From a virus: DNA of 64,000 bases. Under the pieces are notes generated by a model. That model worked only from the letters and a program-made list of their open reading frames with translations. It was not told the origin of the DNA and searched no databases. The stretch spans positions 1 to 64,000 of IMG/VR virus record IMGVR_UViG_3300042554_000362. One strand, written 5' to 3'. Both the position numbers and the translations under genes were made by a program. Positions 21,119 to 55,757 of this stretch are shown in pieces (within the stretch, counting starts at the first letter, position 1; each line of letters starts with the position of its first letter).

Positions 21119-22744
21119 TCAAGTTCTACGTATTCGAGGTCTAGGCCAGGCCGCTCCTGCACTGGGTCTAACGAAAAAGTTCTGTTTAGGCCAAGTATTA
21201 CCAGTACTAGCACGCTCTTCCTTGTAGTACAAGTATCTGTTGGTAGCACCTTGTAAACTGGTTAAATCTGTGTAGCTGCCACCAGTGTCGGTCATTTGTG
21301 CTAATTTAGCGTAGGCCGACAAATATGTACGTGCCGCTGCTTGATTCATAGCAGGATATATTTCTAGAGCACAGGCCAATGCTCCACATACCTGCGGACT
21401 AGCCATACTGGTTCCTGATATTTTACCAATAATATAACTGGCATTTCTGGGATCTGTGGTTCCACCATAACTGGCACTAGTATTAAAACTGCTCATGATG
21501 TTGCTGCCTGGAGCAAACACATCTATTCTAGGACCGCACATGCTGTAGGTTGCCTTGGTTTCGTTTGCAGTAGTACCCACTGCACCTACACAAATAAAGT
21601 TTGGAGCAGAAGCAGGCGAACCACCTTGATGATAGTATACTCCATAGTTTACACCGCCTGATGTCCAAATGAAAAAGTTATTGTAGTCGTTGCCAGTAGG
21701 TAGATCAATTTTAGCTGAGTAATTACTGGCGGCTCCTACCATAATTACACCGTCTGTGATGGCGTCAGCGATATCAGCTTCCATTGCAGTACTACGAGCC
21801 ATAATATAGGCATATCCACCGGTGCTGTATATTCCATAATTTAATAGCTGTGCTTCTGTATAAGGTGCGCCACCTACATAAGCACCACGATAATAGATGT
21901 TGGTAATTAAGGTAATATCTAACTGATATAGTGATCCCCAGCTGTTGTTGGCAATGGTTGGATTACGTCGACCAGTCGCTGGATTTACTGATTTGGAATT
22001 GTGAAACGCTCTAACATAATCAAACACTGTTTGACCATTGTAGTTGTTTGGGTTGGTACCATAGGGGTTGATATTGTAAATATTAGCCTTGCGTGCCCAT
22101 CCTTGTGTGTTTCCACAGGCTGTACCAGCCACATGTGCGCCATGATTATTGTCAGCTTCACCTGTGCCAGTCAGAGGAGTATATACATAAGTTCCTGTAC
22201 CTGCTCCTAGATTATGCTGAAACCAATTGTATTGTATCACACGACTGCCACCTGTGCCATCTGAATTAGCAGCATACTCGGGATGTGCAGGGTTAATATG
22301 CCCATCCACGATTACTACATCTACATTACGTGCTTCAGCGTTTACTGCAATGGTTCCTGACTGATTAGCAGTACTGTCACTACCCCAATTAGATCTTTGT
22401 GCGCCTTCTACACAGCGTAACAAACCCCAGTTTTTATGTGTATTAGTGTTAGTACTGCTTTTATTCCAGGTAGTTTCTGTTTGGGTGTACATGGGCATGA
22501 TTTTAATGCCTAATTCTTCAAACGTTAAACTAACATCTAACACTCTGGGATCTTGTTTAAGCAGTTCGGCTTCCTCGGCAGTAAGCATGTAGTGTGTGTT
22601 TCTACTGTTGCTTCTGCGTAGGTATACACCTACCACACGATCAGGTATATACAAATCTCCACCGGGCGTTTCCATGTCATCGTAGAAAGCATCCAGGTCT
22701 TCATAATTTTTCAGTGTGACTATGTACTCTTTGAGTTCTGCCAT
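21119..22744 (-). CDS. Subtilisin-like serine protease (peptidase family S8), virion-associated
   Basis: The 541-residue protein has the three S8 signature blocks in the right order and spacing. Asp147 lies in VVIVDGH, His201 in NNHGAHVAG and Ser446 in GTSMASP; Asn341 in GAASN is the likely oxyanion residue. Residues 1-80 resemble an inhibitory propeptide (KEYIVTLKNYEDLDAF ... ITSRN-type strand, then LLKQDPRVLDVS). There is no signal peptide, so it would act in the infected cell or ride on the virion. The C-terminal 30 residues (WPKQNFFVRPSAG, WPRPRIRR) look like an attachment tail. Its ATG shares a base with the stop of the collagen-like fibre gene at 22744 (TAATG), which indicates translational coupling. 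It could mature fibre proteins or cut host surface proteins; sequence cannot decide. Confidence 0.9.
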   Translation of the reverse strand: MAELKEYIVTLKNYEDLDAFYDDMETPGGDLYIPDRVVGVYLRRSNSRNTHYMLTAEEAELLKQDPRVLDVSLTFEELGIKIMPMYTQTETTWNKSSTNTNTHKNWGLLRCVEGAQRSNWGSDSTANQSGTIAVNAEARNVDVVIVDGHINPAHPEYAANSDGTGGSRVIQYNWFQHNLGAGTGTYVYTPLTGTGEADNNHGAHVAGTACGNTQGWARKANIYNINPYGTNPNNYNGQTVFDYVRAFHNSKSVNPATGRRNPTIANNSWGSLYQLDITLITNIYYRGAYVGGAPYTEAQLLNYGIYSTGGYAYIMARSTAMEADIADAITDGVIMVGAASNYSAKIDLPTGNDYNNFFIWTSGGVNYGVYYHQGGSPASAPNFICVGAVGTTANETKATYSMCGPRIDVFAPGSNIMSSFNTSASYGGTTDPRNASYIIGKISGTSMASPQVCGALACALEIYPAMNQAAARTYLSAYAKLAQMTDTGGSYTDLTSLQGATNRYLYYKEERASTGNTWPKQNFFVRPSAGAAWPRPRIRRT

Positions 22745-52145: not shown

Positions 52146-54230
52146 TTAATAACTGTTATTCAAAAGTTGTTGCTGAATACTGCGTATATCAGCCATGGCA
52201 GCAGTGGTTTCGTCAGATTTTGCAACCAGTTGTCTAAGCTGTTCTAGTTGTTCACGCATGACATTAACTAGCTCACCCGAAATAGGTCCTGCTGCTGACA
52301 ACTGATTATTAGGCACAATATTACCTGGGCTATTAGGCTGAAAAAGTTCCGGACCACGCTCGCCTACTAGGTAAGTGGTTGCAGGATTTACTGGTCCACC
52401 TGATGCTCTGCCCGGTGCCAACCAGTTACCAATGGCTCCACCTGCGGCGGCCCCAGCAGCGCCGCCTAGTGCAGCAAGTAAAGGGGACACAATAGGAGCG
52501 AAAGGTCCTGTAAAGAGTCCGGCTATTGCACCGATTAAAGTACCAACCAAAGCACCTATTAGGCTGCCGATTGCCATGTATAGATACTTTTCAATATTTC
52601 TAGGAATGTCTGCCAAAATGTTTAAAAATTTTTCCATCCCTGATGCCATACTCGCTAGAACTCCACTGAATTTAGGTAAAGCCTCATCCGTCAAGAATTT
52701 TTCAAGAGTCAACCTCATATTTTGCATACTAATACTTAAATTATTCATGTTGGTAGTTAATGCATCATTGGTGTTTTTTTGATCTTGGGCGGCTTTTTGT
52801 GCATTACGTGCTGCTTCTTCTGTAAACTTGTCTGATTCGAGTAGCTTTTGATTGGCTAATCGTACTGTGTCCCCCAACACTCCGCTTGCGCCTGCTATTC
52901 CTGCCTGCCCTAAGGCTTCTAGTCCACTGAGATTTTCTCTAAATCGATCGTTGGCTCTTCCTTGTAAAACTTGATAATCTTGTACATTAGTATTACCAGA
53001 GCGCAAGAGGTCAACAAATCCTTCAATGCCTTGCCGTACACCTTGATTGTTAGACATTAAAATATTCATAGTGGTATCAGTAACTGTGCCCAATGTAAAC
53101 ATTTGATTTATAGCTTTTTGTTCTGCTTGGCTTCGCGTAGCTATAGCAGCCTCATAGGCTGCTGTAATGCCTGGAGCACGTTTTTCTAATTCCTGTAGTC
53201 TAATTCGAACTGCAATTTGAGAACTAGCAGCCTTGGCCTCCTCCATTTTCTTGCGTGCATCTTCTCCAGTAATAGCTGCAATAGTACGTAAATTTACTGC
53301 GTAGTCAGACACTGCCCGAGCTACAGCATTAGGGTCTTGCATATAAGAACTGTTAGCTCTACGCATGGTTGATAACACATCTGCGGTAAGTGCTGCTTGC
53401 TCTTCAAAGCTGAAACCTAAATTCATTAACTGCGTTTGAATCCCGCTGGTTCGAATCACTCTACCTACATTACCGATGGCCCTTGCTGCGTCACCTACAC
53501 TTAATCCAGATTCCGCTAAAACCTGTCTGTTAGCACTGATTACTGCACCGAACTGTTGTACGGTCAACCCTGCTGCATTAGCACTATTACGCAGTCCAGT
53601 CATACCATCGGCAAATAAAGCCCCGGCGCTGCTAGATTTAGCAAATGCTTCTTGTGTTTTCTTTAATTCGGTTAGTAAAACGCCTACCCCAAATTGGGCT
53701 AGATCACCAAATGCACCGGCTAATACGCCAGCTACACCAGGAAGTTGTCGGCCTATGTTTGTTAATGCGCCGATCCCTCCTTGTAATACACCACCAATAG
53801 CATCAACATCATTGGTACCGTTTTGCAAAGCAGTAACAAAATTTTTGCCTAATTCGTAGCTAGATTTTACTGCGGTATTGGTAAAATTAACCAGTGCAGC
53901 ATTGGTATTAGCGTGTATTACTTGTCTTTGAAGTTCTCGTCGTTTTTCGTTAAGTTGCTTTCGTTCTTCGAAAGTACCAGAATCTTTATATTTGTGATAT
54001 AACTTGTTAACTTCTTGATTTAGTGTGGAATATTCACGATTTTGGCCTTGTAACAGATCATTGGTCACAGACCACATGCTGTTGGTTTGCTTTATGGTTT
54101 TGCTGATAGCGCCAAAGTTTTTAACAACATCAGCAATACTATTACCCTCGATTCGTTGCCCTGCACCTGACCCGCTTTTAAGTAAACGTTCAAATGTTTC
54201 AGCAAACTTTTCGTAATCAAAATCAGCCAC
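52146..54230 (-). CDS. Tail tape measure-like protein
   Basis: The product has about 694 residues if translation starts at GTG 54230 (GGAT at a suitable distance); the open frame reaches TTG 54242, which lacks a ribosome binding site. Long helical regions with few prolines follow the N-terminus. A hydrophobic, glycine-rich segment of about 60 residues lies near residue 560 (SLIGALVGTLIGAIAGLFTG and further small residues). Near the C-terminus is ATTYLVGERGPELFQPNSPG, a hallmark of phage tape measure proteins. These determine tail length and later enter the cell envelope. It is short for a T4-like tape measure (gp29 has 590 residues), so the length is compatible. It runs opposite to the gp26/gp51-like genes, with late promoter matches in both directions between them. 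Confidence 0.78.
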   Translation of the reverse strand: MADFDYEKFAETFERLLKSGSGAGQRIEGNSIADVVKNFGAISKTIKQTNSMWSVTNDLLQGQNREYSTLNQEVNKLYHKYKDSGTFEERKQLNEKRRELQRQVIHANTNAALVNFTNTAVKSSYELGKNFVTALQNGTNDVDAIGGVLQGGIGALTNIGRQLPGVAGVLAGAFGDLAQFGVGVLLTELKKTQEAFAKSSSAGALFADGMTGLRNSANAAGLTVQQFGAVISANRQVLAESGLSVGDAARAIGNVGRVIRTSGIQTQLMNLGFSFEEQAALTADVLSTMRRANSSYMQDPNAVARAVSDYAVNLRTIAAITGEDARKKMEEAKAASSQIAVRIRLQELEKRAPGITAAYEAAIATRSQAEQKAINQMFTLGTVTDTTMNILMSNNQGVRQGIEGFVDLLRSGNTNVQDYQVLQGRANDRFRENLSGLEALGQAGIAGASGVLGDTVRLANQKLLESDKFTEEAARNAQKAAQDQKNTNDALTTNMNNLSISMQNMRLTLEKFLTDEALPKFSGVLASMASGMEKFLNILADIPRNIEKYLYMAIGSLIGALVGTLIGAIAGLFTGPFAPIVSPLLAALGGAAGAAAGGAIGNWLAPGRASGGPVNPATTYLVGERGPELFQPNSPGNIVPNNQLSAAGPISGELVNVMREQLEQLRQLVAKSDETTAAMADIRSIQQQLLNNSY

Positions 54231-54240
54231 TATTTTATCC

Positions 54241-54248
54241 AATAAATA
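54241..54248 (+). promoter_or_regulatory. Late promoter-like box AATAAATA for the gp26-like gene
   Basis: Seven of eight bases match. It lies 33 bases before ATG 54281 and is part of a divergent pair with the box at 54263-54270. Confidence 0.55.
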
Positions 54249-54280: not shown

Positions 54281-55129
54281 ATGCAAACATCAGCCCGTAA
54301 CCCACTCAGTGGTTACTTCAGACAACCTGCTATATTTCTAACATTGCCCAGTAAAGGGCGTTGGTGGGAGCCAGATTCTCTAGAACTGTCAGAAAATGGT
54401 GATATCGCTGTATACCCAATGAGTGCTAAAGATGAAATTACCATACGCACCCCTGATGCATTACTTAACGGACAAGGTGTGGTTAACGTAATACAAAGCT
54501 GCTGCCCAAACATAAAGAATGCCTGGAAAATGCCTAGTGTCGATATTGATGCTGTTTTAATTTCTATTAGAATCGCCACCTACGGCAGTAACATGTCTTT
54601 CGACAGTACCTGTCCACATTGCAAAGCAGCCAACACCCATGAAATTGATTTGGGTGCGCCATTAACCAGTATCAAATGCCCAAATTTTGATCAAACCGTA
54701 AAATACAGAGATTTGGTAATCAAACTTAGACCGCAACATTATTTTGAAGCTAATAGAATAAACATGATTGGCTATGAAGAACAGAAGATACTAGCCACCT
54801 TAAGCAATGAATCTCTAGATGATGAAACTAGAATAGCACAAGTTACTATTATTATGCAAAAGATCGTAGAGATAGGTATAGAGGGTTGCGTAAACAGTAC
54901 CGAATACATACAGCTTCCTAACGGGGATAGAATCATAAACAAGGACCATCTCAATGAATTTTATCATAACGCCGAAAAGACTGTGGTAGCGTCAGTTCAA
55001 GAGGCGGTGGGTGCTATAGCAGCTGAATCTAAAATCCCAGAAATACAACTATCTTGCGATGAATGTTCGTCAACCTATTCAGCAGAACTTACTTTTGATT
55101 ATTCAAATTTTTTCGCAAAAGGCTCTTAA
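54281..55129 (+). CDS. 26: Baseplate hub protein or tape-measure chaperone, T4 gp26-like
   Basis: The start is taken at ATG 54281 (MQTSARNPLSGYFRQPAIFL), because the longer open frame to 54194 runs back through the promoter region and into the opposing gene. The 282-residue product has the block MSAKDEITIRTPDALLNGQG and NVIQSCCPNIKNAWKMPSVD, well known from gp26-like proteins of aquatic T4-like phages (T4_baseplate family as I recall). Two CxxC pairs (Cys111/114 and Cys259/262) could bind zinc. In T4, gp26 is needed to make the central baseplate hub. The 3' end contains A AAT TTT TTC, two overlapping -1 slippery heptamers at 55105-55114. An open frame in the -1 register continues to 55344, so a longer fusion of 354 residues may also be made. 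GGGA before ATG is a weak ribosome binding site. Confidence 0.85.
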   Translation: MQTSARNPLSGYFRQPAIFLTLPSKGRWWEPDSLELSENGDIAVYPMSAKDEITIRTPDALLNGQGVVNVIQSCCPNIKNAWKMPSVDIDAVLISIRIATYGSNMSFDSTCPHCKAANTHEIDLGAPLTSIKCPNFDQTVKYRDLVIKLRPQHYFEANRINMIGYEEQKILATLSNESLDDETRIAQVTIIMQKIVEIGIEGCVNSTEYIQLPNGDRIINKDHLNEFYHNAEKTVVASVQEAVGAIAAESKIPEIQLSCDECSSTYSAELTFDYSNFFAKGS

Positions 55130-55344
55130 CCTTAGATGACGCAGCGATCGTTAATCTAATAGATGCCTACGATCGTGAGGTTAAAGCCTTAAAAAATGAA
55201 TTACTGCGGATGTGCTGGTTTATGCGTGGTAGTATTAGCTATTCTGAAGCTGTAATGTTGAGTCCCAGCGATCGTGCTATTATTGCTGATATTATCAAAG
55301 AGAATTTAGAAACTGCCAAAGAGTCTAAAATGCCTTTCTGGTAA
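55099..55344 (+). CDS. 51: gp51-like segment in the -1 frame, probably made by frameshift from the gp26-like gene
   Basis: After the stop TGA at 55096 this frame is open to TAA 55342-55344. From the slippery site onward it encodes 76 residues: RKRLLTLDDAAIVNLIDAY, REVKALKNELLRMCWFMRG, ISYSEAVMLSPSDRAIIADI and a tail ending SKMPFW. The pattern of acidic helix, MCW.MRG and DR.II...I..N.E..K resembles the short gp51-like proteins next to gp26 in aquatic T4-like phages (recalled, not searched). In T4, gp51 is a catalyst of hub assembly. No ATG, GTG or TTG precedes the conserved part; the first ATG would remove half of it. Expression by -1 frameshifting from the gp26-like gene is therefore the simplest reading. 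An assembly error in the six-T run is the main alternative. Confidence 0.6.
   Translation, partial: LFKFFRKRLLTLDDAAIVNLIDAYDREVKALKNELLRMCWFMRGSISYSEAVMLSPSDRAIIADIIKENLETAKESKMPFW
55105..55114 (+). other. Probable -1 ribosomal frameshift site
   Basis: The sequence AAATTTTTTC holds two overlapping heptamers of the X XXY YYZ type in the correct phase: A AAT TTT (55105-55111) and T TTT TTC (55108-55114). The zero frame ends 13 bases later; the -1 frame continues for 76 codons. No clear downstream stem or upstream Shine-Dalgarno stimulator was found by eye. Confidence 0.65.
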
Positions 55345-55347
55345 TCA

Positions 55348-55406
55348 AGATTTGCTTTCGCAAATCTATTTCTTTCGCTTGCGCTCAGAAATCTTTTTCT
55401 TCTTTA
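55348..55406 (+). terminator. Probable terminator behind the gp26/gp51-like genes
   Basis: AGATTTGC and GCAAATCT (55348-55355 and 55360-55367) pair around TTTC. A second stem ATTTCT/AGAAAT (55368-55373 and 55387-55392) follows, with CTTTTTCTTCTTT after it. The T tract is interrupted, so strength is uncertain. Confidence 0.6.
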
Positions 55407-55420
55407 AGATACTTTTAAAA

Positions 55421-55757
55421 GGGCATTCATCCAGATAATTCAGTCATAATTCGCCCGTTGCCGGGCGAAAAATAGACGACGCCTTCATCCGAGTGCATCA
55501 GCCACTGATCTGGTAGAGTTGTTTTGCAACAGGAGGCGGTTGACCTGTACCCCCATGCTCTAGCCTTCGCGCATGTCAACGGAACCCTAGTCGCACTAAT
55601 CAGCAGCACGATTGGAGCCTACGGTTGTATCTTTTTCACAGAGCCGTAACCATTTGAGACCTAAAGTTAGTTCTATCCTCGCAATGCCCAAGATCCGACG
55701 GTAAATGAATACAGCCTCAATGGGAGTCGAGCAGCCCCGACCAAACGCTATTGCATG
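55421..55757. ncRNA. Candidate structured non-coding RNA, strand uncertain
   Basis: This stretch of about 340 bases has no convincing gene and looks richer in G and C than its surroundings. It contains several inverted repeats. TTCGCCCG/CGGGCGAA (55450-55457 and 55462-55469) would have the stable GCAA tetraloop if the minus strand is transcribed. CATGC/GCATG with GTTGA/TCAAC outside it lies at 55539-55580. TACGG/CCGTA is at 55620-55648, GTCG/CGAC at 55726-55741, and CCAGAT/ATCTGG at 55431-55436 and 55508-55513. No tmRNA, RNase P, 5S rRNA, tRNA or intron signature was recognised. It lies between two converging transcripts. Confidence 0.45.

Follow-up and report, generated by a model that had tools for sequence, protein, structure and literature searches.

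Sequence evidence for a probable -1 programmed ribosomal frameshift in the gp26-like tail assembly chaperone gene of jumbo T4-like phages

The gp26-like locus described here is very probably a tail assembly chaperone gene that is decoded with a -1 programmed ribosomal frameshift, as judged by comparison of its sequence with those of its relatives. The original prediction, made from the letters of a single virus record, had read the locus in this way and is supported by four features: a conserved slippery heptamer, a coding -1 frame, a covarying RNA stem and a tape measure neighbour. The coordinates of these features are collected in Table 1.

Table 1. Features of the frameshift locus and its neighbour, in positions of the window.
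Feature	Position	Strand	Basis
Tape measure-like gene, 698 aa, likely chaperone client	52146..54242	-	phrog_1538; divergent neighbour
Short form (TAC-N), T4 gp26-like tail assembly chaperone / "baseplate hub", 282 aa	54281..55129	+	PF12322, phrog_150, AF2/Foldseek
Overlapping second heptamer, A AAT TTT	55105..55111	+	in phase; kept in 36/83 non-redundant loci
Slippery heptamer T TTT TTC, proposed -1 frameshift site	55108..55114	+	in phase; invariant among assessable relatives
-1 frame extension, C-terminal domain of predicted long form (TAC-NC)	55114..55344	+	76 codons + stop; open; coding selection
5′ arm of predicted frameshift-stimulating RNA stem, 4-6 nt past heptamer	55119..55133	+	z -4.7; covariation in relatives
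3′ arm of predicted RNA stem	55177..55190	+	pairs with 55119-55133; compensatory changes

The window, the whole stretch of 64,000 nucleotides that was analysed, covers almost the full length of a 64,340-base IMG/VR record from a large T4-like phage and also encodes portal gp20, capsid gp23, gp46/gp47-like genes and a late sigma factor. A series of very large glycine-rich, collagen-like (GATGATG) repeat proteins of up to 2282 aa occupies positions 624-30753 on the minus strand; several have similar Gly-rich modules in common and they are possibly fibres or adhesins. A 541-aa subtilisin-like serine protease (21119-22744, minus strand; phrog_3677 protease, E 1.4e-21) sits amid tail-fibre-like genes. 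The roughly 400 bp between the stop of the -1 frame and the next gene (55345-55757) hold no long open reading frame, no tRNA and no Rfam family above gathering score.

The gp26-like open reading frame matches PF12322 T4_baseplate (E 3e-12; 47.1 bits, above the curated cut-off of 24.5) and phrog_150 baseplate hub (E 8.6e-17). Its AF2 model has a pLDDT of 88 and the Foldseek matches are T4-like baseplate hub proteins, with E-values down to 4e-25. The gene ends GAT TAT TCA AAT TTT TTC GCA AAA GGC TCT TAA. The -1 frame contains no stop between 55099 and the one that ends it at 55342-55344, predicting a fusion of 354 aa, and the frames, coordinates and lengths originally given (282 aa, 76 codons, 354-aa fusion) were all reproduced from the sequence. 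The first ATG, GTG or TTG of this frame is the ATG at 55210 (codon 38), which encodes the M of MCWFMRG; as had been claimed, the frame has no start before its conserved part. Both heptamers noticed at the outset are present and in phase, but only T TTT TTC is conserved among relatives, and the conservation pattern suggests that A AAT TTT is accessory at most.

Searching with the gp26-like protein (tblastn) retrieved 89 phage records, mostly of jumbo T4-like phages; with the -1 product alone only Phosso and Atu_ph07 were found. The gp26 gene ends with the in-phase heptamer in 14 of 14 annotated jumbo relatives from several genera, as T TTT TTC or, in XacN1 (L008:3765-3850) and RAS14 (L009), as T TTT TTT. 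In the same 14 relatives the -1 frame is already open 5′ of the heptamer and extends approximately 71-81 codons beyond it. Two IMG/VR scans, one with the gp26 query and one with the -1 product, gave 100 loci; the peptide patterns were back-translated over all codons and the scans should therefore not favour TTT or TTC. The heptamer is found in 113 of the 113 loci (of 116) that could be scored automatically, by a survey script that demanded it; gene-end listings of annotated and metagenomic relatives were made separately without that demand. The other three loci are cut by contig ends and two of them still show the heptamer. Removing near-copies leaves 83 non-redundant loci, 81 with T TTT TTC and two with T TTT TTT. 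Aligning homologues had been proposed as a check on the slippery sequence, and T TTT TTC or T TTT TTT is indeed in phase in all assessable relatives.

The constraint on these codons is unusual within the gene. Synonymous variation is absent from only 3 of the 270 scorable gp26 codon columns (63 aligned genes), which are the three of the heptamer; the next best column scores 0.88. The codon preceding the Phe pair varies (AAT, AGT, ACT, CAT and others) yet always ends in T. Given the codon usage of each gene, and ignoring shared ancestry, log10 P is -26 for this T-ending and -15 for the first Phe being TTT throughout.

Beyond the gp26 stop, the -1 frame has a median dN/dS of around 0.30 (0.31 for disjoint pairs) against 1.09 and 1.48 in the other two frames, values indicating that it is under purifying selection. 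It is open in every locus surveyed. The broken frame itself is the sole point in favour of one intact gene having been split, whether by an error of sequencing or assembly or by a recent mutation that broke the frame. The same -1 relation recurs at the same place in more than 270 public loci, together with the purifying selection on the -1 frame, and we regard this explanation as having a negligible chance of being correct; independent genomes share the arrangement of frames, which excludes an error of sequencing or assembly.

Many database annotations imply a different arrangement, two separate genes without a fusion product, the downstream protein being translated by re-initiation at the gp26 stop or behind it. 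In the records of relatives the second frame is entered as a hypothetical protein of its own, shortened, or left without annotation. In 121Q, fEgEco12, XbC2, Phosso and S-PM2 an ATG lies a few bases from the gp26 stop and the two frames are annotated as separate genes; in approximately one third of relatives a TTG overlaps or closely trails the stop, and a TTG that overlaps TGA is seen in many relatives. Re-initiation could thus contribute in relatives with such a TTG or ATG. Against a separate start, none precedes codon 38 in the window, ATG, GTG and TTG are absent from the first 30 codons of the -1 frame in 22 of the 83 loci, and the -1 frame of PA5oct has no such codon at all. The missing start, whose conservation had been proposed as a check, is shared by these loci but not by 121Q and XbC2, where an ATG stands at the gp26 stop. 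In three loci (L092, L095 and L096) a -1-frame TAA lies immediately 5′ of TTTTTT; since it touches the heptamer, the frame is enterable only there. The -1 frame conserves FFR and the residues that follow it, which precede the possible starts, and re-initiation would leave both the invariant heptamer codons and the covarying stem unexplained. We consider two separate genes highly improbable, and a frameshift at the heptamer the preferred reading.

The AF2 model of the -1 domain is all-helical (pLDDT 86). Foldseek returned no significant match to this model, and the fold therefore gives no family. Pfam matches of the domain to DUF294 and Lip_prot_lig_C fell below cut-off and were judged to be chance.

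The 80 nt past the heptamer of the window fold with -27.6 kcal/mol into a long stem enclosing an inner hairpin. The median fold z-score past the heptamer is -3.25 in the window's clade and -2.9 over all 83 loci; controls gave -0.1 upstream and -0.5 further downstream. For ten named pairs in 54 sequences, changes on both sides were counted in 60 cells versus 25.8 in shuffles, with compensatory changes in nine of the ten pairs. The covariation score of the named stem is 0.26 against at most 0.135 for slid partners, and a second length class (13 sequences) agrees. These comparisons indicate that there is a covarying RNA stem behind the heptamer in the window's clade. Around 20 of the 54 sequences are without the named stem; in many of these the 5′ arm is unchanged and keeps its spacing from the heptamer, but its 3′ partner is a different one. 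This probably accounts for the failure of RNAalifold to find a consensus structure over all 54 sequences. A helix of at least 7 bp beginning 4-8 nt past the heptamer is present in 68 of the 83 loci compared with 27 of 166 upstream controls, for which the rule was slightly looser. No clear stem was seen past the heptamer in the RaK2/121Q clade, and Rfam matches near the frameshift site were all far below gathering scores. XacN1 has a strong 11-bp stem 6 nt downstream of its T TTT TTT.

Slippage of RNA polymerase would also join the two frames, and in its favour the site is a T run. RNA polymerase slippage usually needs longer runs. The run here is just six T, broken by C, in nearly all loci, and the strict codon phase, two loci with TTTTTTA (below) and a stem at the usual spacing likewise speak against it. 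Transcriptional slippage is, in our judgement, even less probable than re-initiation, and ribosomal slippage remains the reading that we favour.

The arrangement extends to cyanophages. The S-PM2 gp26 gene ends CAG TCT TTT TTC GCA TAA, and the frame at -1 to it holds the annotated gp51 of 57 aa. S-PM2-type phages resemble the window in having the heptamer close to the gp26 stop, in their case three codons ahead of it, and gp51 in the -1 frame, but their gp26 (238 aa) and -1 domain (approximately 60 aa) are shorter. All 160 of 160 cyanophage-like loci, near-copies included, have the arrangement: 157 with T TTT TTC, one with T TTT TTT and two with T TTT TTA. The latter two (L182 and L213) carry the classical retroviral heptamer at the same position. 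The stem is seen in part of the cyanophage-like loci, 37% having z < -2 versus 5% of controls.

The comparison with T4 suggests how its hub proteins relate to this gene. T4 gp26 and the short form of the window share a Pfam family, and T4 gp26 and gp51 both match PF12322 over its full length. Profile comparison of the two aligns 189 columns (98.8%, E 6e-17), which identifies them as paralogues. The cyanophage fusion aligns with T4 gp51 over 239 columns from near its start to its end (E 8e-21), and the cyanophage -1 product with the gp51 C-terminus (98%, E 2e-13). T4 gp51 is thus the counterpart of the long form and gp26 that of the short form, because the fusion spans gp51 and its -1 part matches the gp51 C-terminus. 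The -1 domain of the window's clade aligns with that of the RaK2 clade (97%, E 3e-11) and only marginally with the T4 gp51 C-terminus (37%, E 3.5e-4, in the right register); hhalign of the RaK2-clade domain to T4 gp51 was not significant. The original description of the -1 frame as gp51-like concerns the C-terminal 50 or so residues of gp51, with a clear match for cyanophages and a marginal one for the window's clade; gp51 as a whole matches the entire fusion.

Genes 26 and 51 of T4 (Straboviridae) are separate and divergently transcribed, unlike the single frameshifting gene of the window, and no heptamer is left at the end of T4 gene 26. It appears that T4 has fixed the short and long forms as separate paralogous genes. 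When the shared domain is placed in a tree, 26 and 51 proteins of the T4 type fall on one branch (97/92) with the cyanophage and jumbo proteins outside; the tree is unrooted and fits a frameshift that is older than a single duplication within the T4 lineage. A broader proposal is that the frameshifted single gene is ancestral in T4-type phages and 26/51 a derived in-frame duplication, and that the jumbo phages have a dedicated stem whose 3′ partner shifted repeatedly while its position behind the heptamer stayed constant; we see this proposal as evenly balanced between right and wrong.

As predicted, a tape measure-like gene lies nearby. The adjoining minus-strand gene matches tape measure families, its C-terminal part aligning with the phrog_1538 tail length tape measure protein (E 3.7e-11). 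The two genes are divergent and 38 bp apart, and they are likewise divergent neighbours in most jumbo relatives. Like lambda G/GT and P2 E/E+E′, the locus has a short chaperone gene adjoining the tape measure gene, a -1 slip (here predicted) towards the 3′ end of that gene and a minor form with a C-terminal extension; no sequence similarity is claimed. The P2 tail chaperone frameshift also occurs at a T-run heptamer. In lambda and P2 the chaperone gene is directly upstream of the tape measure gene in one operon, in contrast to the divergent genes of the window.

In the mechanism that we propose, the majority of ribosomes would make the short form and terminate at the TAA at 55127. A minority, slowed by the RNA stem, would slip -1 on U UUU UUC and add the 76 codons of the long form. 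The slippage, its rate, the two proteins and their roles are what we infer from the locus, the chaperone role being proposed from homology and from the parallel with lambda. If the two forms act as gpG and gpGT do, the domain common to both would coat the tape measure protein, the helical domain found only in the long form would bring in the tail tube subunit, and the virion would retain neither form. The lambda gpG and -1 slip product gpGT bind the tape measure protein and the T part recruits the tube protein (PMC5009743). A similar division of labour between short and long forms is most likely here. T4 gp51 is needed for assembly yet absent from the particle (PMC3004832), which fits such a division.

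The principle of the frameshift is already known for tailed phages, including some T4 relatives. Vladimirov, Gautam and Davidson (Virology 2022, 566:9-15) reportedly assigned gp26 as TAC-N and gp51 as TAC-NC in T4-like phages; their abstract is said to state that frameshifting is conserved in several T4-like groups and that T4 itself uses genes 26 and 51. The original prediction knew of no description for the T4 gp26/gp51 pair; the arrangement had reportedly been described by these authors. A 2016 review still treated T4 as an exception to the rule. Two later papers cite Vladimirov et al., one for poly-T slippery sites within the TAC-N genes of T4-like phages (the Adele paper, PMC12846349) and the other for the occurrence, in some T4-like phages, of the short form and the long fusion as genes of their own (the PRFect paper, PMC10274946). 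Our search, which did not extend to the full text of Vladimirov et al., found no earlier description of the jumbo lineage with its covarying stem. What this work seems to add is the jumbo-phage lineage and its RNA stem, together with the survey of loci and the annotations found to have been missed.

The frameshift at this locus looks real and ancient. The tail chaperone frameshift would span jumbo T4-like phages and cyanophages, and in the annotated genomes examined it has been overlooked, the second frame being given as a separate "hypothetical protein" or "gp51", or as nothing. U UUU UUY and a covarying stem are two readable features for annotation and testing. The frameshifting gene would also explain in simple terms the T4 hub proteins gp26 and gp51, which have long been puzzling.
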